From Pelagicoccus enzymogenes (GTDB lineage Bacteria > Verrucomicrobiota > Verrucomicrobiia > Opitutales > Opitutaceae), in contig NZ_JACYFG010000036.1 in the NCBI RefSeq assembly GCF_014803405.1, forward strand, positions 372,001 to 436,000: a stretch of 64,000 nt of DNA. The letters run 5' to 3'. A model generated the notes under the pieces. That model saw nothing but the letters and a program-made list of their open reading frames with translations, was not told the DNA's origin and did no database searches. Both the position numbers and the translations under genes were made by a program. Shown one piece after another: positions 20,188 to 30,001 of the stretch (the first letter of the stretch is position 1; every line of letters begins with the position of its first letter).

Positions 20188-21066
20188 TCATAACTTCCCT
20201 CTCAAATCCATCACGGCCCGCTTGATCTCTCCCGGGCGGGTCCACGGAATAAAGTGGTTCACCCCTTCCAATATCCGCAATTCAACTACGCCAGCAGGCA
20301 TGACGCGCTCCACGTAGTCCGCGTTTTCCTTGGGCACCAGCTCGTCCTGATCTCCCTGCAGGACGATAGTCGGAACCTGCACCCTCGCCAACTTTGGCTT
20401 CAACTCCTGCAGCTCGCCCCGAAGCGGCCAAATTTCGTCGTTGCTGTTCCGCCACTCGCGCGAGAGTCCCCAGCGAACAAGAGGAAACTTGCCTACCCAG
20501 TTGAACCACTTTCGCTCCTCCAAATCTGGGTCCATCGACGGAGCTACCAGAATCATCCCCGCGACCGATTCCGGATAGTCGACCGCCAGCTCCGCCACCA
20601 CGGGTCCGCCCAGAGAATGTCCCACCCAGATAGCCGGCAAGGCCACGCCGGATGCCACCACCGCGTCGCGAATCCGCTTAGCCTGCATAGATATCGAGGG
20701 CTCCGATCCATTCGGTCGCGTTTCGCCAAAGCCCGGCCGATCCACTGATACCACGGTGAACTGCGAGCTCAATTCCTCGTCGGACAGCAGGTGCGCAAAG
20801 TTGTCCCAACTCCCAGGCGAGCCGTGCACGAAAACTAAGGTCGGGCCCCCGCCCGCACGTGCCAGAAAAACGCTGCCCTGCTCATCCTGATGTTCGAAAT
20901 AGACTGGGGCCGCTTGCCCACGCTCCGCGAAAAGCTCCCGAATTTCCTCCTCCGGCATCCGCAAGGACATACAGCCAGAAAACACCATCGAAACGGCGAA
21001 GCTTCCCGCCAGCAGGAACAGCATGCACCCAAGTGATTTCCCAAGAGTAAAAACGCGGACTGCCAT
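20188..21066 (-). CDS. Alpha/beta hydrolase, probable lipoprotein
   Basis: 292 residues from the start at 21066; a start at 21078 would add MCGV. The signal region ends in VFSGC, a lipobox, so the protein should be lipid-anchored. The alpha/beta hydrolase fold shows HGSPGSWDNF (oxyanion region), nucleophile elbow GHSLGG, acid in QGDQDELVP and His in EGVNHFIPW, so the triad is complete. Substrate unknown. It stands alone between gspE and the metal-efflux operon, transcribed away from the latter. Confidence 0.85.
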   Translation of the reverse strand: MAVRVFTLGKSLGCMLFLLAGSFAVSMVFSGCMSLRMPEEEIRELFAERGQAAPVYFEHQDEQGSVFLARAGGGPTLVFVHGSPGSWDNFAHLLSDEELSSQFTVVSVDRPGFGETRPNGSEPSISMQAKRIRDAVVASGVALPAIWVGHSLGGPVVAELAVDYPESVAGMILVAPSMDPDLEERKWFNWVGKFPLVRWGLSREWRNSNDEIWPLRGELQELKPKLARVQVPTIVLQGDQDELVPKENADYVERVMPAGVVELRILEGVNHFIPWTRPGEIKRAVMDLRGKL

Positions 21067-21200
21067 CACACCACACAACGAATCGCAAACTCATTCGACG
21101 ACAAAAAACAGACATTCGCAAACGCTGCACAAACGTTGTTCCCACTGCACACCGCCCTTTTGACTTCACAAAACGAAAATAAAATACCAAATAGTGTTTA

Positions 21201-21599
21201 GTGAACTGGATCAGAGTAACAGCAGTCCTTCTCATCACAGCGATTTTTAATCCGCTGTGCTGCTGCCTTGATCTCAGCGCGGAACCGCTCGAGCAAGCGA
21301 GCCCAAGCGCCGCAGCACATTCCTGCTGCACCGCTTCCACCGAAGCGAAGTCGGGCCTCGGCAAACACAGCCAAGAAGAATGCCCGCACAGCTCCGAGAA
21401 GGATTCTCAAATCAACGAGGGAGCCTTGGCCCAGGACTCACTGCAAAAGCCCCACCAGCCCCTCGTTTACACTTTGCCCGCGTTGCCAGTTCTTGCCGCG
21501 GCGCCCCAGTCGCAAACGCCACGCGACAACACTCGGATTCGGGCCCTACAGGAACCCAGCTCCCAGCGTTCCTTGGCGTACTGTGTCTACTTGATTTGA
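21201..21599 (+). CDS. Small exported Cys/His-rich protein of the metal locus
   Basis: 132 residues with a GTG start at 21201; an in-frame stop lies 7 nt upstream. The N-terminus is a hydrophobic export segment (NWIRVTAVLLITAIF) followed by CCC, AAAHSCC and EECPHSSE clusters of Cys and His, then a Pro-rich tail ending LAYCVYLI. I do not recognise a named family, though small proteins of this layout occur in front of copper/heavy-metal efflux genes. It is the first gene before the structured element and the TolC-CusB-CusA genes, so a metal-binding or sensing role is inferred. Confidence 0.6.
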   Translation: MNWIRVTAVLLITAIFNPLCCCLDLSAEPLEQASPSAAAHSCCTASTEAKSGLGKHSQEECPHSSEKDSQINEGALAQDSLQKPHQPLVYTLPALPVLAAAPQSQTPRDNTRIRALQEPSSQRSLAYCVYLI

Positions 21600-21600
21600 C

Positions 21601-21745
21601 GCGAGCTAAGAGCTGACCACCTCTAACGTCAGAGGGGCAGCACTACCGAACTAGGAGCCGACACGTATCGGCTCGACTGTACGAAGGCGAGTAACGCCTT
21701 CCGATCTACGTTCAACCGATCCCGCAAGGATCAATCTTCGCTCGC
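21601..21745 (+). ncRNA. Candidate structured RNA element upstream of the efflux operon
   Basis: A nested fold can be drawn by hand. Closing helix: GCGAGCtAAGA (21601-21611) with TCTTcGCTCGC (21735-21745), 10 pairs and one mismatch. Inside: hairpin 21612-21641 (GCTG, CC and CCTCT pairing AGAGG, GG and CAGC, two bulged A); helix GAACTAG (21648-21654) with CTAcGTTC (21706-21713), enclosing two perfect 7-bp hairpins GAGCCGA/TCGGCTC (21655-21674) and GAAGGCG/CGCCTTC (21683-21701); and hairpin GATCC/GGATC (21718-21732) with a GCAA loop. It begins 1 nt after the upstream stop and ends 5 nt before the next ATG. Function unknown; a cis-acting leader of the efflux genes is the simplest reading. Confidence 0.6.
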
Positions 21746-21750
21746 AACAA

Positions 21751-23073
21751 ATGACATCCGTAACTACTCGTTCAACGCTCCGAACACTGCAGACGCTCGT
21801 CCTCGGCTTTTCGATCTGCGGCTCCGTTCCTCCTCTCGCCCTCGCCAACGGCAGCCAAGAGACTGCCGCATATGGGCTCGCCGACCGCGACATCGTCGGC
21901 CCCTACATAGCCGCCGCACTCGAAAACAATCCCGAGCTCCAAGCTGCCGAGAAACGCTACCAAGCAGCCCGCCAAAGCATCGACTACGCCGGAGCGCTCC
22001 CCAACCCCAGGGTCCAGCTCACCCATTTCGTGGAATCCATTCAGACGCGCACTGGACCTCAGCGGCAAGCGATCTCCCTGCAGCAACCGCTTCCATGGTT
22101 CGGAAAACTGGATACGACTCGCCAGATTGCTCGTAGCCAAAGCGAAGCCCTCTGGCACTCCTACGCGTCGCAGCAATTCGAGCTAGCGGACAAAATAGCT
22201 TCGAGCGTTCTGGAAATAGCCTTTCTAGACAAAGCCATCGCCATCACCAAGCAAAACGCCAGCCTCCTGAACCGCCTCGAAGCAATCGTGGAGGACAAGG
22301 TTAAAGCCGGCGGCGACCTCTCAGACCTGCTCAAGATACAGGTAGAGGCGCATCGATTGGAGGACACCTTGGCGTCCCAAGAGACAAAACGGGTCATGAG
22401 CCTCGCGACCTTGCAAAGCCTCCTCGGGAGCGACTCCGAAACCCTGCAACTTCCCAGTGACTGGAACGCTCCCTCACTCGCCTCAACGCAAGAGCAGGAA
22501 TGGCTAGATGCCATTCGGCAAAGATCTCCCAAGCTCGCAATGCTGCGCTCCCTCGCGGAGAACCAAGCCTCAAGAGAGAGACTCGCCCAGTTCGCCGCAA
22601 AACCGGATCTCAGCGTCGGCATAAACTACATCCGCACCGGCCAATCGCTGGGATCAAACGCTCCCGACAACGGCAGGGATCCCTGGGCCATCATGGTCGG
22701 GATAAGCCTTCCCATCTGGGGTAAGGCCAACAACGCCATAGCGCTCCAGGCATCCTTGGAAAAAGAGGCGATGGAAGCGGACATTCGCGGACTGGAGCTG
22801 GAGCTGAACGCGACGGGCAAATCCTTGCTTGCGCGCTTAGCAGACTCGAAAGCACGCATGATACGATATGAGACAAAACTCCTGCCCCTCGCTAGACAAG
22901 CGCAGGAAATCTCCGCTTCTAGCTACCAGACCGGCAAAGCTTCCATCCTCGATCTTATCGATAGCGAGCGAGCACTCTTGAAGTTAGAAACTGAATACTG
23001 GCGGGCGGCCGCCGACGCATGGCAAGCCCGTTGGAAGCTCGCCAGCCTAGCCGGAGGATTCTGGCTGAACTAG
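21751..23073 (+). CDS. TolC-family outer membrane efflux protein (CusC-like)
   Basis: 440 residues. An N-terminal signal peptide (about 1-34, hydrophobic LVLGFSICGSVPPLALA) is followed by the duplicated alpha-helical barrel repeats of the outer membrane efflux family (NNPELQAAEKRYQAARQSID early; SSYQTGKASILDLIDSERAL late). It would form the outer membrane channel for the CusBA pump encoded directly downstream (27-nt gap to the adaptor gene). The start codon is only 5 nt after the closing helix of the structured element. Confidence 0.9.
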   Translation: MTSVTTRSTLRTLQTLVLGFSICGSVPPLALANGSQETAAYGLADRDIVGPYIAAALENNPELQAAEKRYQAARQSIDYAGALPNPRVQLTHFVESIQTRTGPQRQAISLQQPLPWFGKLDTTRQIARSQSEALWHSYASQQFELADKIASSVLEIAFLDKAIAITKQNASLLNRLEAIVEDKVKAGGDLSDLLKIQVEAHRLEDTLASQETKRVMSLATLQSLLGSDSETLQLPSDWNAPSLASTQEQEWLDAIRQRSPKLAMLRSLAENQASRERLAQFAAKPDLSVGINYIRTGQSLGSNAPDNGRDPWAIMVGISLPIWGKANNAIALQASLEKEAMEADIRGLELELNATGKSLLARLADSKARMIRYETKLLPLARQAQEISASSYQTGKASILDLIDSERALLKLETEYWRAAADAWQARWKLASLAGGFWLN

Positions 23074-23100: not shown

Positions 23101-24993
23101 ATGAAAACGAAAAACCTAATTATTTCCGCAGGCATTGCCCTGCTGATCGCAGCCTTCCTAATCGGACGCTGGACCGCTCCTTCGCCTGCTGTCCATGACC
23201 CGTCCATCGCTGAAAAAGCCGCTCCGACAACAGCCGAACCCGAGGTTTGGACCTGTTCGATGCACCCCCAGATCCAGCAGCCAGAACCAGGCGACTGCCC
23301 GATTTGCGGAATGGACCTCATTCCTCTGGAAAACGATTCAGATGGAGACGAGGGGCCACGAACTCTTAGCATGAGTGAAAGCTCCAGAGCATTGGCCAAC
23401 ATTCAAACTTCCGTTATCAAACGTCGTTTCCCGACCGCGGAGATTCGTCTCGTAGGTAAACTTGAATACGACGAAACGAAAGTGAAGTCGCTCACCGCAC
23501 GCTTTCCCGCTCGCATCGACGAGTTGTTCGTCAACTTCCCAGGCGTCCCCGTGCAAAAGGGTGACCACCTCGCTCGCGTCTACAGCCCCGAGCTCCTGAC
23601 CGCCCAGAGCGAACTCATCACCGCCCATCGCTACGATCCCGACAGCGCCGCAACGCGAGCCGCCAAAGAAAAGCTTCTTCTCTGGGACCTCCTCCCCAAT
23701 CAGGTCGATGCCATCCTAAAAAGCGGCAAAGCGAGTGACACTTTCGAACTGAAAGCTCCAATCGCAGGAATCGTAGTCAATAAAAACATAAACGAAGGCG
23801 ATTACATGAAGACAGGGCAACCGCTCTTTCGTATCGTTGATCTCAATACGCTTTGGCTGCAACTCAACGCCTACGAATCCGATCTCGCTTGGCTCCGCTT
23901 CGGTCAACAAGTCACCTTCTCCGTCGAAGCTTATCCCGGGCAGAACTTCCAAGGACAAATCACATTCATCGAGCCCGAAATCAACCGAGCAACTCGCACA
24001 GTCGCCGTCCGAGTAAACGTCGACAATGCCGCGGGCAAACTGAAACCAGGCATGTTCGCTAAAGCGCGCGCTAAATCTCAGGTAGCCCAGGCCGGCAGCG
24101 TCTTCGAGCCGGAATTTGCCGGAAAGTGGATCAGCCCCATGCACCCCGAAATCGTTAAGGATGGTCCTGGTCACTGTGACATTTGCGGGATGGACCTCGT
24201 GCCCGCAGAAGAATTGGGCTACGTACAAAACCCCGATGCGGAACCGCCACTCGTCATCCCCGCATCCGCCGTGCTACGCACCGGAAAAAGAGCAGTGGTC
24301 TATATCGAAAAACCGAATACAAGCCGTCCTACATTCGAGGGCCGAGAAATTGAATTGGGCCCGCGAGCCGGCGAAGTCTTCGTCGTGAGATCTGGACTGG
24401 CGAAAGGTGATCGCGTTGTGACCAATGGAGCCTTCAAAATCGATTCTGCTCTCCAGATCAAAGCCAAGCCCAGCATGATGAACCCCCAAGGCGATGCCTC
24501 GCCCCCAAGTCACCACCACGGAGACGGTGAAATGGCATCAAGCGCTTCGAAAGCTGCGGCACTCGAGATCGCTCCCGGAAGCGCCTCCCAAATCGTGAAC
24601 CACTACCTCGCGATGCAATCAGCTCTTGCGGGAGACGATCTCGAGGAAGCCAAAAACGCAGCAAACGCCATGATGAAGATCACCGGACACTCTGGAGACC
24701 TGCCAGATCTGCTGCACGACATGCTGGCAGCAGATGATATCGACGCGTTCCGCCGACCGCATTTCGAGAAACTCTCCAATGCCTTCATCGCTGCAGCGAA
24801 AACGGACGCCAACGCCTTTGAGCAGCCGCTGACAATAATGCATTGCCCCATGGTGTATCCAGATCGTGGAGCCGATTGGCTGCAAGGAGACCTTAACCTG
24901 AAAAACCCTTACTTCGGCGCCATGATGCTCACTTGTGGAGAGGTAAAAGGGACGTTGGGCAAGGAACGAGAGTCAAGTGAGGTCGAGCAATGA
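23101..24993 (+). CDS. Heavy-metal RND efflux periplasmic adaptor (CusB-like) with two metal-binding modules and DUF3347
   Basis: 630 residues, longer than the roughly 400 of E. coli CusB. Domains: N-terminal membrane anchor (7-22); heavy-metal-binding domain 1 (about 49-76, CSMHPQI...CPICGMDL); adaptor core with barrel-sandwich hybrid and beta-barrel (about 105-330); heavy-metal-binding domain 2 inserted at 342-372 (SPMHPEI...CDICGMDL); membrane-proximal domain; His-rich linker (SHHHGD, about 470); C-terminal DUF3347 domain (about 495-620) ending NPYFGAMMLTCG. The modules indicate copper/silver-type metal capture and delivery to the pump. It overlaps the pump gene by 4 nt. Confidence 0.92.
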   Translation: MKTKNLIISAGIALLIAAFLIGRWTAPSPAVHDPSIAEKAAPTTAEPEVWTCSMHPQIQQPEPGDCPICGMDLIPLENDSDGDEGPRTLSMSESSRALANIQTSVIKRRFPTAEIRLVGKLEYDETKVKSLTARFPARIDELFVNFPGVPVQKGDHLARVYSPELLTAQSELITAHRYDPDSAATRAAKEKLLLWDLLPNQVDAILKSGKASDTFELKAPIAGIVVNKNINEGDYMKTGQPLFRIVDLNTLWLQLNAYESDLAWLRFGQQVTFSVEAYPGQNFQGQITFIEPEINRATRTVAVRVNVDNAAGKLKPGMFAKARAKSQVAQAGSVFEPEFAGKWISPMHPEIVKDGPGHCDICGMDLVPAEELGYVQNPDAEPPLVIPASAVLRTGKRAVVYIEKPNTSRPTFEGREIELGPRAGEVFVVRSGLAKGDRVVTNGAFKIDSALQIKAKPSMMNPQGDASPPSHHHGDGEMASSASKAAALEIAPGSASQIVNHYLAMQSALAGDDLEEAKNAANAMMKITGHSGDLPDLLHDMLAADDIDAFRRPHFEKLSNAFIAAAKTDANAFEQPLTIMHCPMVYPDRGADWLQGDLNLKNPYFGAMMLTCGEVKGTLGKERESSEVEQ

Positions 24994-27900
24994 GCAAGCA
25001 TTCAGCCCTTTCCCAGCGGCCAACGTCGCTGCTAAACAAACTCATTCGCTTCTGCCTAGAGAACAAACTGGTTGTCGCTCTCTTTACAGCGGGACTCATA
25101 CTCTGGGGCGTAATGGTCGCTCCCTTCGATTGGGAAATCGATTCGCTGCCTCGCGATCCGGTGCCAGTGGATGCCATTCCGGACATAGGCGAGAACCAGC
25201 AAATTGTATTCACCGAATGGATGGGCCGCTCGCCGCAGGACATAGAAGACCAGATCACCTATCCGCTTACCACTGCTCTGCTGGGACTTCCTCAGGTCAA
25301 GACGGTGCGCAGCTACTCCATGTTCGGGTTTTCTTCCATCTATATCATATTCAAGGAGGAAGCCGAATTTTATTGGACCCGCAGCCGCATCCTGGAGAAG
25401 CTCAACAGCCTTCCGAGCGGCACTCTTCCTCAAGGCGTATCCCCCCAACTGGGACCGGATGCCACCGCTCTCGGACAAGTTTTCTGGTATACATTGGAAG
25501 GCATGGACCCAGAAGGGAAGCCCACGGGCGGCTGGGATCTCGACGAGCTCCGCAGCACCCAGGATTGGTACGTACGCTACGCCTTGCAAGGAGTCGAGGG
25601 CGTAGCGGAAGTAGCCTCCATCGGCGGGTACGTCAAGGAGTACCAAATAGACGTCGACCCAGATGCATTGCGCACCTATAACGTCGCATTGCACGAGGTC
25701 TTCGACGCCGTGCGCGGCAGCAACCTCGACGTCGGAGCTCGCACGATCGAGATAAATTCCGCCGAATACGTTATTCGTGGCCTTGGATTCGTTAAGAGCC
25801 TCGACGACTTGCGGCGTACGGTGGTAACCCAACGAAACAACGTCCCCATAACTCTCGACCAATTGGCAGATATCGAGTTTGGCCCAGCTCTACGGCGCGG
25901 AGCCCTCGACAAGGCGGGAGCCGAAGCGGTGGGCGGCGTCGTTGTCACGCGTTATGGCGAGAACCCGCTTGAGGTCATCAAGCGTATCAAAGAAAAGATT
26001 ACGGAAATCTCAGCAGGCATGCCGAGCAAGACGCTGGAAGACGGAACCCTCAGCCAGGTGCAAGTCGTTCCTTTCTACGATCGCACGGGCCTGATCTACG
26101 AAACTCTCGGTACGCTCGAAGAAGCAGTCAGCCTGGAAATCCTAGTTACGATTATCGTAGTCGTACTCTTGGTGATGCACCTGCGCAGCGCGTTGTTGAT
26201 ATCAGGCGTGCTGCCGCTTGCCGTTCTCTTTGCCTTCATTGGCATGTGGTTGCTCGAGGTCGACGCCAACGTTGTTGCCCTTTCCGGCATTGCCATCGCC
26301 ATCGGTACGATCGTGGACATGGGCATTGTCGTGATAGAAAATATTCTCAAGCATTTGGACAAGGCCGACCCCAAGGAGAGCCGACTCGAAGTCGTCTATA
26401 GAGCAAGCGCAGAAGTCGGCAGCGCGGTTCTCACGGCAGTAGCGACTACGGTAATTAGCTTTTTGCCGGTCTTCACCATGCAAGCAGCAGAAGGAAAGCT
26501 CTTTCGTCCTCTCGCCTATACAAAAACTTTCGCCCTGATCGGCTCCATCGTCGTAGCCCTCACCATCATCCCTCCCCTCGCCCACTGGTTCATAGCGGGA
26601 AGGCACGAAAACCGTATCAGCAAAACAATTACATGGGGATCTATCGCGACACTCGGACTCGCCATTCCATTCTTCTGGAACGGTTTTCCTTGGCTACTCA
26701 GCGCATTGCTTATCGGAGTCGCCAGCTTCAACCTCTTTGCGAACCGTTTGCCTGAGTCTCTCCGCCAACGCTGCCACTACGCCTTCAATTTCATAGTCGC
26801 CTTCGTCGTCGCTCTCATACTCGCGCAGGCGTGGAAACCGATGGGCCCCGAACACCCATGGCAGAACGCGCTTTTCGTAATCCTCGCGATCGGTAGCCTG
26901 CTCCTGCCAATGCTCGCCTTCATCTGGATGTATCCGCGAATTCTGACATTCATTTTGAGGACAAAAGCCGCCTTCCTATCACTCAGCCTGTTGGTCGTCG
27001 CCTTCGGATTCAGCGCTTGGCTTGGCTTCTCTACTCTCTTCGGCTGGATGCCAGACTTTGTGAAAAAGTCATCGCCCTATGTCGCGGTCAGCCACGCCCT
27101 CCCTGGCTTGGGAAAGGAGTTCATGCCTCCCCTGGACGAAGGCTCTTACCTGCTCATGCCTACGACCATGCCGCACGCGTCCATCGGCGAAGTGATGGAC
27201 GTATTGAAAAAACAAGACATGGCCATCAACGCCATACCTGAGGTGGAACTGGCTGTCGGAAAGCTTGGACGCGCGGAAAGTCCTCTCGATCCCGCACCCA
27301 TTTCCATGATCGAAACCATAATCAACTACAAACCGGAGTTCGTCGTCGACCAGGATGGACACGTTTTGACCTTCGCCTACGACGAGTCGAAACAGGAATA
27401 CTTGCGCGACGAAATGGGACAGCTCATCAGCGACGAGGACGGACGCCCATTTCGCAACTGGCGAGACGAGATACGAAGTCCAGACGACATCTGGGCAGAG
27501 ATCGTAAAAGCTGCCAGCATTCCGGGCACCACTTCCGCACCGAAGCTACAACCGATCGCAGCTCGCATCGTGATGCTGCAAAGCGGCATGCGCGCCCCCA
27601 TGGGATTGAAGGTTTACGGGCCGGACCTCGAAACCATCGAGTCGCTTGCCTTGCAAATCGAGGGCATCCTGAAGCAAGTCCCCTCCATCAAAGCGGAGGC
27701 CGTGCTGGCGGACCGCATCGTCGGCAAGCCGTACCTTGAGATCGACATCGACCGCGACGCGATCGCCCGCTACGGCATTCGCATCAAGACAGTGCAGGAC
27801 GTGATCGAAGTCGCCATCGGCGGCAAACCCATCACCCAAACCGTCGAAGGTCGCGAGCGCTATCCGGTTCGCGTCCGCTACCAACGCGAATTACGCGACA

Positions 27901-28772
27901 GCATCGAGGACATCGAAAGCATTCTGGTAGCCGCTCCCGACGGTACTCAGATTCCTCTCAAGGAACTGGCTTCCATTCGGTACGTGCGAGGACCGCAAGT
28001 AATCAAAAGCGAGGACACCTTTCTCGTCGGCTACGTAATCTTCGACAAGCGCAACGGATTCGCCGAGGTCGAGGTAGTCGAGCAAGCCCAGCAACTGTTG
28101 CAGGAAAAGATAGCGAGCGGCGAGCTGAGCATCCCCTCGGGGGCCAGCTACCGTTTCACCGGGAGCTACGAAAACCAGCTGCGAGCTGAGAAACGCCTGA
28201 GCATCGTGCTGCCGATCTCCTTGTTCGCCATTTTCCTAATACTCTACTTCCAGTTCAAGAAGGTGCCGGTAACGCTGCTGGTTTTCTCCGGAATCGCTTT
28301 CGCTTGGTCCGGAGGATTCATTCTCCTGTGGCTCTACGGGCAAGATTGGTTCTTCGACCTCTCCCTGTTCGGGCAAAACCTGCGCGACCTTTTCCAGGTC
28401 GAGACGCTGAACTTAAGCGTCGCGGTTTGGGTCGGTTTCCTCGCCCTCTTCGGCATCGCCACTGACGACGGCGTCATAATGGCGACCTACCTCGAACAAC
28501 GATTCCGCGAAGCTCCCCCAAAAGACCGGGAGGAGATCCGTCAACGTGTGGTAGAGGCAGCGCAAAAACGCGTCCGTCCCGCAATGATGACCATCGCAAC
28601 CACGATCCTCGCCCTGCTGCCCGTATTGACATCTTCAGGACGCGGATCAGACGTGATGCTCCCCATGGCAATTCCTACCTTCGGCGGCATGCTGCTCGCC
28701 ACCATCACCATTTTCGTCGTGCCTGTGCTCTATTGCAGTATCGAGGAGCTGAAGGCGAAATCTTCTAACTAA
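24990..28772 (+). CDS. Heavy-metal RND efflux transporter (CusA/CzcA family)
   Basis: 1260-residue inner-membrane proton/metal antiporter of the HME-RND class; E. coli CusA has about 1050. The N-terminal pore sequence DPVPVDAIPDIGENQQIVF, TM4 GTIVDMGIVVIENI and the late DDGVIMATYLEQRF segment are class hallmarks. VMLQSGMRAPMG aligns with the CusA segment that holds a Met relay residue, favouring Cu/Ag. About 120 extra residues with additional hydrophobic helices lie at about 535-660, and an acidic insertion lies near 780-830. Its start overlaps the adaptor gene (ATGA). Confidence 0.93.
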   Translation: MSKHSALSQRPTSLLNKLIRFCLENKLVVALFTAGLILWGVMVAPFDWEIDSLPRDPVPVDAIPDIGENQQIVFTEWMGRSPQDIEDQITYPLTTALLGLPQVKTVRSYSMFGFSSIYIIFKEEAEFYWTRSRILEKLNSLPSGTLPQGVSPQLGPDATALGQVFWYTLEGMDPEGKPTGGWDLDELRSTQDWYVRYALQGVEGVAEVASIGGYVKEYQIDVDPDALRTYNVALHEVFDAVRGSNLDVGARTIEINSAEYVIRGLGFVKSLDDLRRTVVTQRNNVPITLDQLADIEFGPALRRGALDKAGAEAVGGVVVTRYGENPLEVIKRIKEKITEISAGMPSKTLEDGTLSQVQVVPFYDRTGLIYETLGTLEEAVSLEILVTIIVVVLLVMHLRSALLISGVLPLAVLFAFIGMWLLEVDANVVALSGIAIAIGTIVDMGIVVIENILKHLDKADPKESRLEVVYRASAEVGSAVLTAVATTVISFLPVFTMQAAEGKLFRPLAYTKTFALIGSIVVALTIIPPLAHWFIAGRHENRISKTITWGSIATLGLAIPFFWNGFPWLLSALLIGVASFNLFANRLPESLRQRCHYAFNFIVAFVVALILAQAWKPMGPEHPWQNALFVILAIGSLLLPMLAFIWMYPRILTFILRTKAAFLSLSLLVVAFGFSAWLGFSTLFGWMPDFVKKSSPYVAVSHALPGLGKEFMPPLDEGSYLLMPTTMPHASIGEVMDVLKKQDMAINAIPEVELAVGKLGRAESPLDPAPISMIETIINYKPEFVVDQDGHVLTFAYDESKQEYLRDEMGQLISDEDGRPFRNWRDEIRSPDDIWAEIVKAASIPGTTSAPKLQPIAARIVMLQSGMRAPMGLKVYGPDLETIESLALQIEGILKQVPSIKAEAVLADRIVGKPYLEIDIDRDAIARYGIRIKTVQDVIEVAIGGKPITQTVEGRERYPVRVRYQRELRDSIEDIESILVAAPDGTQIPLKELASIRYVRGPQVIKSEDTFLVGYVIFDKRNGFAEVEVVEQAQQLLQEKIASGELSIPSGASYRFTGSYENQLRAEKRLSIVLPISLFAIFLILYFQFKKVPVTLLVFSGIAFAWSGGFILLWLYGQDWFFDLSLFGQNLRDLFQVETLNLSVAVWVGFLALFGIATDDGVIMATYLEQRFREAPPKDREEIRQRVVEAAQKRVRPAMMTIATTILALLPVLTSSGRGSDVMLPMAIPTFGGMLLATITIFVVPVLYCSIEELKAKSSN

Positions 28773-28779
28773 TACCATC

Positions 28780-29370
28780 ATGAAAACCGTATTCATCTTA
28801 GCGCTGTTGGCATGGGCAACGAGCTTGTCCGCCCAACACCACCACCCCACCCAGCTTGTCTCGCCCTTTTCCAAAAGTCTCGAGAAGGCCTACCTGAGCT
28901 TGCAGTCCAGCTTGGCGGCGGACGACTTGAACGGAGCGCATGAGTCCGCCCTCGCTTACATCTCCGCCTTCGAGAAGTCTACCGCGCGGCTTAACGTCGA
29001 AGCCCTCACCCAACACGCCGAAGCAATTGCGCAGGCCAACGATATCGCTGCCGCCCGAGCCTCTTTCAAAACGCTCAGCTCGCAGGCAACGATGCTTTTC
29101 GACTACCTCGCCAGCAGCGATTCCTCTCCCCTCTATCTCGTGCGTTGCAGCATGGCATTCGATGGAGCAGGCGCGGAATGGCTGCAAAACACGCAAACGA
29201 TCTCCAACCCCTACTACGGCAGCAGCATGGCGAATTGCGGTTCCATCGTGAGAAGGATCGGCTCGACCGCCCCCGCCCCCGCCACCGCCAGCAGCTCATG
29301 CTGCGCAAGCCAAGAGAATCACGCGGCAAGTTGCGAGCACCACAATTCACCCTCCTGTTGTTCCCAGTAG
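28780..29370 (+). CDS. Secreted DUF3347 domain protein with Cys/His-rich tail
   Basis: 196 residues. Signal peptide (about 1-18, ending LSA), a HHHH-containing start of the mature protein (QHHHPTQ), a four-helix-type DUF3347 domain (about 30-165) ending CSMAF...WLQ...NPYYGSSMANCG, and a tail rich in Cys and His (SSCCASQENHAASCEHH, then SCCSQ). The domain is the same as the C-terminus of the adaptor. A periplasmic metal-binding chaperone handing ions to the CusCBA-type pump is inferred. Begins 8 nt after the pump gene. Confidence 0.8.
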   Translation: MKTVFILALLAWATSLSAQHHHPTQLVSPFSKSLEKAYLSLQSSLAADDLNGAHESALAYISAFEKSTARLNVEALTQHAEAIAQANDIAAARASFKTLSSQATMLFDYLASSDSSPLYLVRCSMAFDGAGAEWLQNTQTISNPYYGSSMANCGSIVRRIGSTAPAPATASSSCCASQENHAASCEHHNSPSCCSQ

Positions 29371-29440
29371 TCCATCTTCCCGAAACCTTTTTTTCGAAAC
29401 AAGAACCCATAAAATCTAAATCCGAGTACATTACACAGCC

Positions 29441-30001
29441 ATGAAAACACTCATCCTAACACTGATCGCCACAACCTTAGCCGTCGCCAACCTGCAAGCG
29501 CACTGCGGTACCTGCTCCACGAGCGAAGGAGCCCACGAACACCACGCATCGTGCGCCAGCCACCAGCTCGACCCCTACTTCGCAGCGCAAGCTGCTTTGG
29601 CTTCCGACGACCTCGCAGCCGCAAAAAATGCCGCGAAGTCCATGCTGAAGACGGGAGAAGAAAAAGGCTGCTCCCTCGAGGAAGGCGCTTGCTGCGCGAC
29701 CGAACTGACTGCTGCAACACAGATCACTGAAGCATCCGATATCAAAGCGGCCCGCAAAGCCTTCAAGTCCTGGTCCGATACGCTCATTGCCAAACTGGAC
29801 GAGGAAGGCCTCGCCGAAGGCAGCGCCATCAAAATGTACTGCCCGATGGCTTTCAACAACATGGGTGGCGCCTGGCTGCAATCGAGCAAGGACCTCAGGA
29901 ACCCATACTACGGCTCCATGATGCTCACCTGCGGCATGCCGCAAAAAGAGTACGGCAAGGGAGGAACGCAACAACACTCCGGCGAACATCACCATCACTA
30001 G
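29441..30001 (+). CDS. Secreted DUF3347 domain protein, second copy
   Basis: 186 residues. Signal peptide (about 1-20, ending LQA), a metal-ligand-rich N-terminus (HCGTCS, EHHASCASH), the DUF3347 domain (about 45-175) with an internal GCSLEEGACC insertion, the CPMAF...WLQ...NPYYGSMMLTCG signature, and a C-terminal HSGEHHHH. It is paralogous to the preceding gene and to the adaptor C-terminus. The 70-nt gap before it shows no terminator, and a strong terminator follows, so it is taken as the last gene of the operon. Confidence 0.8.
   Translation: MKTLILTLIATTLAVANLQAHCGTCSTSEGAHEHHASCASHQLDPYFAAQAALASDDLAAAKNAAKSMLKTGEEKGCSLEEGACCATELTAATQITEASDIKAARKAFKSWSDTLIAKLDEEGLAEGSAIKMYCPMAFNNMGGAWLQSSKDLRNPYYGSMMLTCGMPQKEYGKGGTQQHSGEHHHH

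Follow-up and report, generated by a model that had tools for sequence, protein, structure and literature searches.

The locus described here raises the question of how translation of a metal-efflux operon may be governed by what lies directly before it, a small cysteine-rich ORF and a strongly folded intergenic RNA. The window, by which we mean the whole stretch of 64,000 nt of Pelagicoccus enzymogenes that was analysed (GCF_014803405.1, contig NZ_JACYFG010000036.1, positions 372,001-436,000, forward strand; positions below are numbered within it), contains these coding features at the locus:

21201..21599, + strand: upstream ORF of 132 aa with a GTG start and a UGA stop, from the ORF list; putative nascent metal sensor
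21579..21599, + strand: conserved C-terminal codons YCVYLI and UGA, compared over 41 distinct loci; putative arrest or slow-termination site
21751..23073, + strand: cusC-like outer membrane efflux protein (PF02321, E 4.3e-38); putative target of the clamp described below
23101..24993, + strand: cusB-like adaptor with two heavy-metal-binding (HMBD) stretches (PF16576, PF19335)
24990..28772, + strand: cusA-like RND pump (TIGR00914 above cut-off; aligned to E. coli CusA)
28780..29370, + strand: DUF3347 protein in the same cluster as cusCBA (PF11827)
29441..30001, + strand: second DUF3347 protein (PF11827)

The closest solved structures to the window pump are E. coli CusA chains, and in an alignment to E. 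coli CusA, read by eye, the window pump carries Met at all three positions of the site formed by M573, M623 and M672, which we take to be the Cu(I)/Ag(I) site of that protein. Because these three methionines are matched by Met, the pump probably transports copper or silver; the combination of a CusA/CzcA-family pump with a three-methionine site is that of a CusCBA Cu/Ag efflux operon. A simple scan of 21050-21800, whose terminator part covered intrinsic sites only, found neither an intrinsic terminator nor a sigma-70 promoter. The two DUF3347 proteins form an adjacent pair 3' of cusA (28780-30001), and the CusB-like protein carries this domain too, in its C-terminal portion.

Folding confirmed that the RNA structure between the upstream ORF and cusC is real. 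The minimum free energy (MFE) of 21590-21755 on the + strand is -67.0 kcal/mol vs -41.3 +/- 3.8 kcal/mol in 200 dinucleotide shuffles (z -6.79), none of which was as stable; the opposite strand is also more stable than all 200 of its shuffles (z -5.15). A preliminary description had drawn a nest of helices from the letters alone, and the MFE fold contains every one of them, with small corrections: a closing helix of 10 pairs (21601-21606/21740-21745 and 21608-21611/21735-21738, with one mismatch), a bulged hairpin of 11 pairs (4+2+5) at 21612-21641, a 7-pair helix with one base bulged (21648-21651/21710-21713 and 21652-21654/21706-21708) and two 7-bp hairpins (21655-21661/21668-21674 and 21683-21689/21695-21701). 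The hairpin at 21718-21732 forms as well (21718-21722/21728-21732, 5 bp), but its loop is the 5-nt CGCAA and not the strict GCAA tetraloop that had been supposed. The helices placed inside the gap were right and the extent given to the element was not: the outermost helix had been overlooked, so the element spans from the stop codon of the ORF into the start codon of cusC. This outer helix (21594-21598/21748-21752), which we call the clamp, has 5 bp with pair probabilities of 0.95-1.0. The RNA features, taken from the MFE fold, are as follows:

21594..21598, + strand: 5' arm of the outer clamp helix, holding the U and G of the stop codon 21597-21599; pairs with 21748-21752
21748..21752, + strand: 3' arm of the outer clamp helix, holding the A and U of the cusC AUG 21751-21753; pairs with 21594-21598
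21601..21611, + strand: 5' arm of the inner closing helix, 10 pairs with 21735-21745
21735..21745, + strand: 3' arm of the inner closing helix
21612..21641, + strand: interior bulged hairpin, 11 pairs, unrecognisable in relatives
21648..21713, + strand: interior branched arm, a 4+3 pair stem with two 7-bp hairpins, unrecognisable in relatives
21718..21732, + strand: interior hairpin, 5 bp, CGCAA loop

At the window locus 151 nt of branched RNA separate stop from start, and the start region pairs best with the 16-nt stop window, which none of the 283 other windows matches. An Rfam search gave no match to the element; the preliminary description had been unable to match it to a riboswitch consensus (NiCo, Mn, cobalamin, lysine). 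The mobile repeat that had been considered was dismissed, the element being present as a single copy: a search of the genome at E <= 0.001 returned one match, the element itself. Among 115 related genomes a full-length match to the element DNA was found only in the window, with all other rows at <= 42 nt, and a 21-nt core had no match in viral contigs.

The upstream ORF, whose 132 aa lie within the CutF-like limit of <150 aa, has an N-terminus that is hydrophobic by reading, the motifs PLCCC, HSCC and CPH, and the C-terminus AYCVYLI-UGA. It had no match in Pfam or NCBIfam at E <= 0.001; DUF6350 matched only weakly (E 0.036), and scattered weak matches were all that appeared at E <= 1. It belongs to a family without an existing name that is marked by PxCCC, HxCC and CPH and by a C-terminus that is mostly [YHD]CVYx[LI]-UGA; the family profile matches the window ORF with E 9.8e-44, the window ORF being itself a row of that profile. 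In 32 aligned members P18, C20-C22, C42-C43 and C61 (window ORF numbering) are invariant, and the cysteine motifs are followed by a variable linker and then by the conserved C-terminal end.

That end was compared over 41 distinct C-terminal sequences, for which G461, G736a and G767b were left out of the 45 loci of the order; in G461, which lies near a contig end, the conserved end is missing. Cys stands at -5 in 39 of 41 distinct loci, encoded by TGC and TGT alike, and Val or Ile at -4 in 37 of 41; position -3 is Tyr, Phe or Trp in 32 and Arg in 8, and position -1 is Leu, Ile or Val in all 41. At -5, -4 and -3 the third codon positions are freer than the first two, and because they vary most the peptide at these positions seems to be under selection, as judged from the codons; base pairing, rather than peptide, could in part hold the last codons. 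All 45 loci of the order (41 of 41 distinct) stop at UGA; among ORFs of >= 200 aa its share is 13 of 33 for the window and 15 of 50 for the loci. Outside the order the stop is UGA in 9 of 10 cases and TAA in one. One branch of the family (f8: L098, L101, L102, L103, L106, L108, L109) has ORFs that end DCVR-x-L-UGA, and the three of them scanned (L098, L103, L108) precede cusB-type genes.

The cusC protein had 24 matches in 19 of 115 related genomes, the window's own counted. Within 600 nt upstream of nine of the 24 lay an ORF with the C-terminal codon pattern, and a tenth (L043) was found by eye. A profile of these ten upstream ORFs (A2) detected the family in at least 36 of 372 genomes of the order, at 39 places, and a profile of 32 family members (A5), run across the phylum, in at least 15 of 387 genomes, of which six belong to the order and nine, with 11 places, do not. 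One A5 match outside the order, G238, is no family member by reading. Searching the phylum for the C-terminal pattern gave 5 of 387 genomes, among which G000 and G376 hold true members; in G177 (L059) the ORF is unlike the family, and in G216 and G220 (L055, L056) no 60-aa ORF ends in the pattern. The pattern overlooked a related ORF in G593, which is included in no count.

Scanning 17 next genes in the relatives gave three of cusC type (G104, G048, G633), five of cusB type (G004, G655, G079, G103, G301) and three multicopper oxidases (G394, G343, G269a); one of the rest had a weak YHS match only and five had no match. The ORF family is found before cusC or cusB and, outside the order, before a multicopper oxidase. 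That one family precedes different copper genes, with several of the clamps rebuilt from other letters, argues for the putative sensor ORF and the clamp as a regulatory module.

The feature that recurs among relatives is the pairing of stop to start by differing sequences. Folding of related elements gave z < -2 in 25 of 30 (mean z -3.6), with a gap of 64-189 nt in the 30 loci and a varying number of hairpins; no more than 8 of 197 columns of the RNA interiors were invariant in 11 sequences, and three of these were the UGA. Within the order the arms read, for example, TTTGATGC/GCATCAAA, TGATTGA/TCAATCA and TGAGATCC/GGATCTCA, and TTTGATCCCA/TGGGATCAAA at a locus where the pair is located 46 nt 5' of its start; outside the order they read TGATGAAGTGG/CCACTTCATCA, AAGCGATGC/GCATCGCTT and TAATTTTATTT/AAATAAAATTA. 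MAFFT alignments of whole elements (A3, A4) failed to align the interiors usefully, and covariation was therefore judged by permuting arms, each 5' arm being paired with the start region of every other locus and no structure being fitted. With starts assigned by hand in 30 of 45 loci, the true pairings summed to -423.4 kcal/mol vs -325.7 +/- 13.9 kcal/mol when permuted, and none of 5000 permutations was as good. Left out of this set were G736a and G461 (near contig ends), the duplicate G767b, and the loci in which no start could be assigned (G092, G588, G590, G792, G704, G670, G680, G645, G836, G644, G102 and G736b). Ten lineage representatives picked by hand gave 13 of 20000 permutations as good, and drawing one locus per lineage at random 300 times gave a mean z of -4.55 and a median p of 0.002.

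The hand starts were chosen after the pairing had been seen in several loci, so the test was rerun with an automatic start rule. This drops G736a and G461 (no next ORF) and G089, G107 and G773 (no ATG within 400 nt), and departs from the hand choice in G048 and G015; over 39 distinct loci the true arms gave -361.7 vs -271.9 +/- 15.2, and again none of 5000 permutations was as good. A second set, found afterwards through the protein profile alone, comprises nine of the 11 places outside the order, G238 being no family member and the start string of G329 not being located; with hand starts that were chosen after the sequences had been seen, it gave -114.6 vs -72.0 +/- 9.8, with 0 of 20000 permutations as good. 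Compensatory changes, on whose presence in relatives the preliminary description had made its element depend, are found in both sets, between the arms of the clamp. Together with the weaker folding of the shuffles and the single copy, the other two refuting conditions named there, they speak for a functional element. Bases 2-7 after the stop were each seen in all four Watson-Crick pairs across the 29 of 39 loci whose pairing was strong enough for a tally, a count in which the pairs were fitted and only the variety is informative. As a partner of the start region, the 16-nt stop window ranked in the best 1% in 15 of 30 loci and in the best 5% in 17 of 30. In 19 of 30 loci the helix ends, on its 3' side, at -3 to +5 nt relative to the AUG; G655, one of the 19, is too weak to count. 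One relative that ends in TAA still has a stop-to-start helix.

Arm covariation is found in most, not all, of the lineages tested. With automatic starts, the clamp left no signal in the 12 loci outside the hand-start set, 911 of 5000 permutations being as good; in these loci the starts may be wrong, the leaders may be longer or the clamp may be absent. In the four f8 loci tested the start region does not pair with the stop window. In G655 a helix just 3' of the stop (CATAGATC/GATCTATG) takes in the AUG instead, and in G376, G002 and G633 the 3' arm lies 37-46 nt 5' of the assigned AUG. Just three of the nine loci of the second set reached the best 5% in the within-locus test (18-nt window). 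A mild excess was also seen in control windows placed 25, 40 and 60 nt further upstream (76, 284 and 74 of 2000), and none in those placed 25 and 40 nt further downstream (1172 and 941 of 2000). A looser duplex scan, in which a 30-nt arm could pair anywhere in the intergenic region, gave weak and mixed z; it tolerates large internal loops and was superseded by the arm-limited tests.

We propose, at a probability of roughly two in three, that the locus is a two-part translational switch, in which an ORF that senses copper or silver as a nascent chain is joined to an RNA clamp running from its stop to the start of cusC. The upstream ORF would make a small exported Cys/His protein that senses either metal while still bound to the ribosome. 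The outer helix, by pairing the stop region of the ORF with the start bases of cusC, would keep cusC closed. Metal on the emerging protein would slow its export, and the ribosome would linger with YCVYLI in the tunnel and UGA next. A ribosome with UGA in its A site covers about a dozen nt downstream. Since that footprint spans most of the 5' arm, a pause at the UGA would cover this arm and free the 3' arm and the AUG; cusC would then be translated, and cusBA along with it, until normal termination allowed the clamp to re-form. The hairpins within the clamp may have the sole role of bringing its two ends together. The fold with its reach from stop to start, the covarying arms in most lineages, the conserved peptide and UGA, and the copper genes nearby come from computation; export, the pause or arrest, metal sensing and the direction of the response are inferred.

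The preliminary description had envisaged a leader through which metal governs translation of the pump genes. The control of translation agrees with the computed fold and the arm tests; the RNA as the metal sensor finds no support, given an interior with almost no conserved positions and a gap that ranges over 64-189 nt. Because the Cys-rich protein and its C-terminal residues are conserved and the RNA interior is not, the comparison of sequences points to sensing by the nascent peptide rather than by the RNA.

It is also possible, if unlikely, that the arrangement is plain translational coupling with no sensing, the clamp being opened by each passage of a ribosome through the ORF and metal control residing at the promoter. 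In a variant of this idea, which we include in the same judgement, the terminating ribosome re-initiates at an AUG brought close by the fold, so that the two products are made in fixed stoichiometry. The helix alone would suffice for either; the clamp sets stop and start codons adjacent, and a strong Shine-Dalgarno match is absent before 29 of 30 starts. The last of these is not special to cusC, because the 33 window ORFs >= 200 aa show no Shine-Dalgarno signal above background. Plain coupling leaves unexplained the conserved cysteine clusters and C-terminal residues, as well as the occurrence of the same ORF family before multicopper oxidases.

Control might otherwise be transcriptional, with the upstream ORF and leader governing Rho-dependent termination between the genes, and this we hold to be distinctly improbable. 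Bordetella CruR operates in this way in the accessible text of its description (PMC9426467), and the CruR intergenic region is 162 nt long in that of the CutF study (PMC9973294); a clamp ending at the AUG fits the predicted masking of a start instead. A riboswitch, with the multi-branch RNA refolding as it binds a metal ion directly, is very improbable: a strong branched fold does lie 5' of a metal pump, but hardly any interior position is conserved in relatives, Rfam had no match, and conservation sits in the peptide and the clamp. A NiCo, Mn or new metal riboswitch was dismissed on this ground, the relatives having no conserved aptamer core and interiors that are unalike. That the UGA encodes selenocysteine, with the fold directly after it in a Cys-rich protein acting as a SECIS element, is next to impossible and was dismissed, since the codons after the UGA are variable, the TAA-ending relative keeps its helix, and no SelB scored above cut-off in the 96%-complete genome (8 partial matches fell below it).

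The system that the locus most invites comparison with is CutF of Rhodobacter capsulatus. There, according to the accessible text of the study (PMC9973294), a stalling-like pause lasts longer when the exported protein binds copper as a nascent chain, and a stem-loop that covers the next start is unfolded. The same logic seems to apply at the window locus, where the C-terminus is another and the RNA clamps stop to start; this analogy draws on several likenesses. As in cutF-cutO, a putatively exported small Cys protein with a conserved C-terminus lies just 5' of a copper-handling gene; an intergenic RNA shielding the next start and action in cis, both given for CutF in that text (PMC9973294), are predicted for the window; and members of the ORF family outside the order likewise stand before a multicopper oxidase. 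The window ORF has 132 aa, an N-terminus that reads as hydrophobic, and the CCC and CC invariant in 32 members; its export and metal binding are putative. The shielding of the next start is borne out by the fold and the arm permutations, and was not seen in f8 or in the 12 further loci. A further CutF-like or DUF2946 feature is absent from the window ORF and present in 17 of 45 family loci. The differences are as clear. The CutF survey, in its accessible text, required Pro-Pro in the last 15 residues (PMC9973294), whereas the window ORF has none and ends YCVYLI-UGA. The cutF-cutO gap is 40 bp in the portion of the 2021 CutO paper that we could consult, and that of the window is 151 nt. The cutF-cutO stem-loop is described as covering a Shine-Dalgarno sequence (PMC9973294, accessible text), whereas the window has a stop-to-start clamp and no Shine-Dalgarno; because the window ORFs show no such signal, the masked target is less clear than in CutF.

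In CruR of Bordetella pertussis, likewise an upstream ORF, the cysteines and the C-terminus are conserved, and it senses copper in the available part of its description (PMC9426467). The same text assigns it to DUF2946 with a RAPP motif, whereas DUF2946 (PF11162) was missing from the matches of the 32 members at E <= 1 and had no match in the window's genome; in CruR, again on that text (PMC9426467), copper relieves the arrest and lowers expression via Rho. CzcI of Cupriavidus metallidurans, compared here by its description in the accessible text of PMC9973294, is also a small protein 5' of an RND efflux operon, and is there called CutF-like without a C-terminal proline motif. In SecM, VemP, MifM and TnaC the nascent chain pauses the ribosome and alters downstream RNA structure or termination, as summarised in the part of PMC9973294 at hand; these sense export, insertion or tryptophan, whereas metal is proposed for the window ORF.

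Metal sensing by a nascent chain is known for few upstream ORFs, and the tested examples that we found are CutF and CruR. The main text of the CutF survey (PMC9973294) and the CruR paper (PMC9426467), as far as their text is accessible, name neither Verrucomicrobia nor Opitutae, and a literature search for such a system in Verrucomicrobia or Pelagicoccus, with subscription journals thinly covered, found nothing relevant. If our main proposal is true, nascent-chain metal sensing extends to a phylum for which we found no report of it, through a C-terminus that resembles neither RAPP nor Pro-Pro and a simple RNA geometry in which a stop codon is clamped to a start codon. A helix linking the stop of one ORF to the start of the next is itself a search rule that may reveal more systems.

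Arrest by YCVYxL-UGA has, to our knowledge, not been reported. It is tempting to speculate that there is a class of metal-gated arrest peptides acting at termination, in which exported Cys proteins, most of them with [YHD]CV[YR]x[LI]-UGA as their end, stall the ribosome at the stop, and this ribosome opens the clamp, the clamp being transferable, with its sequence fully changed, before different copper genes of Verrucomicrobiota; this broader idea is tentative, and our doubts about it slightly outweigh our confidence. In three loci outside the order that lie before multicopper oxidases (L124, L125, L126) the ORFs end GPPxxRLxxLQRFLI-UGA. By their sequences these ORFs are nearer to published CutF than the window ORF is, and may form an evolutionary bridge.

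Some cusC paralogues without the ORF pattern (L029, L030, L031, L033, L035, L036, L040, L041, L042, L044) share, by reading, (T)GAGGGTTTtC-N-TGCGTTtAAG just 5' of the ATG, and a gene resembling the end of an ECF sigma factor lies, also by reading, 5' of L030, L034, L036 and L042. Paralogues lacking the ORF pattern perhaps use an alternative control at the promoter level.

Two loci or groups of loci show further pairing possibilities. In f11 (L083, L086, L089, L094) the stop region can form its own hairpin around the UGA, GGATC-TGATT-GATCC, which would compete with the clamp. In L115 (G107) the 3' arm is present as the tandem copies CCAAACCTTCACAA and CAAACCTCATG, each able to pair with the stop region; the second copy extends to the AUG, and the arrangement looks like a built-in either/or switch.
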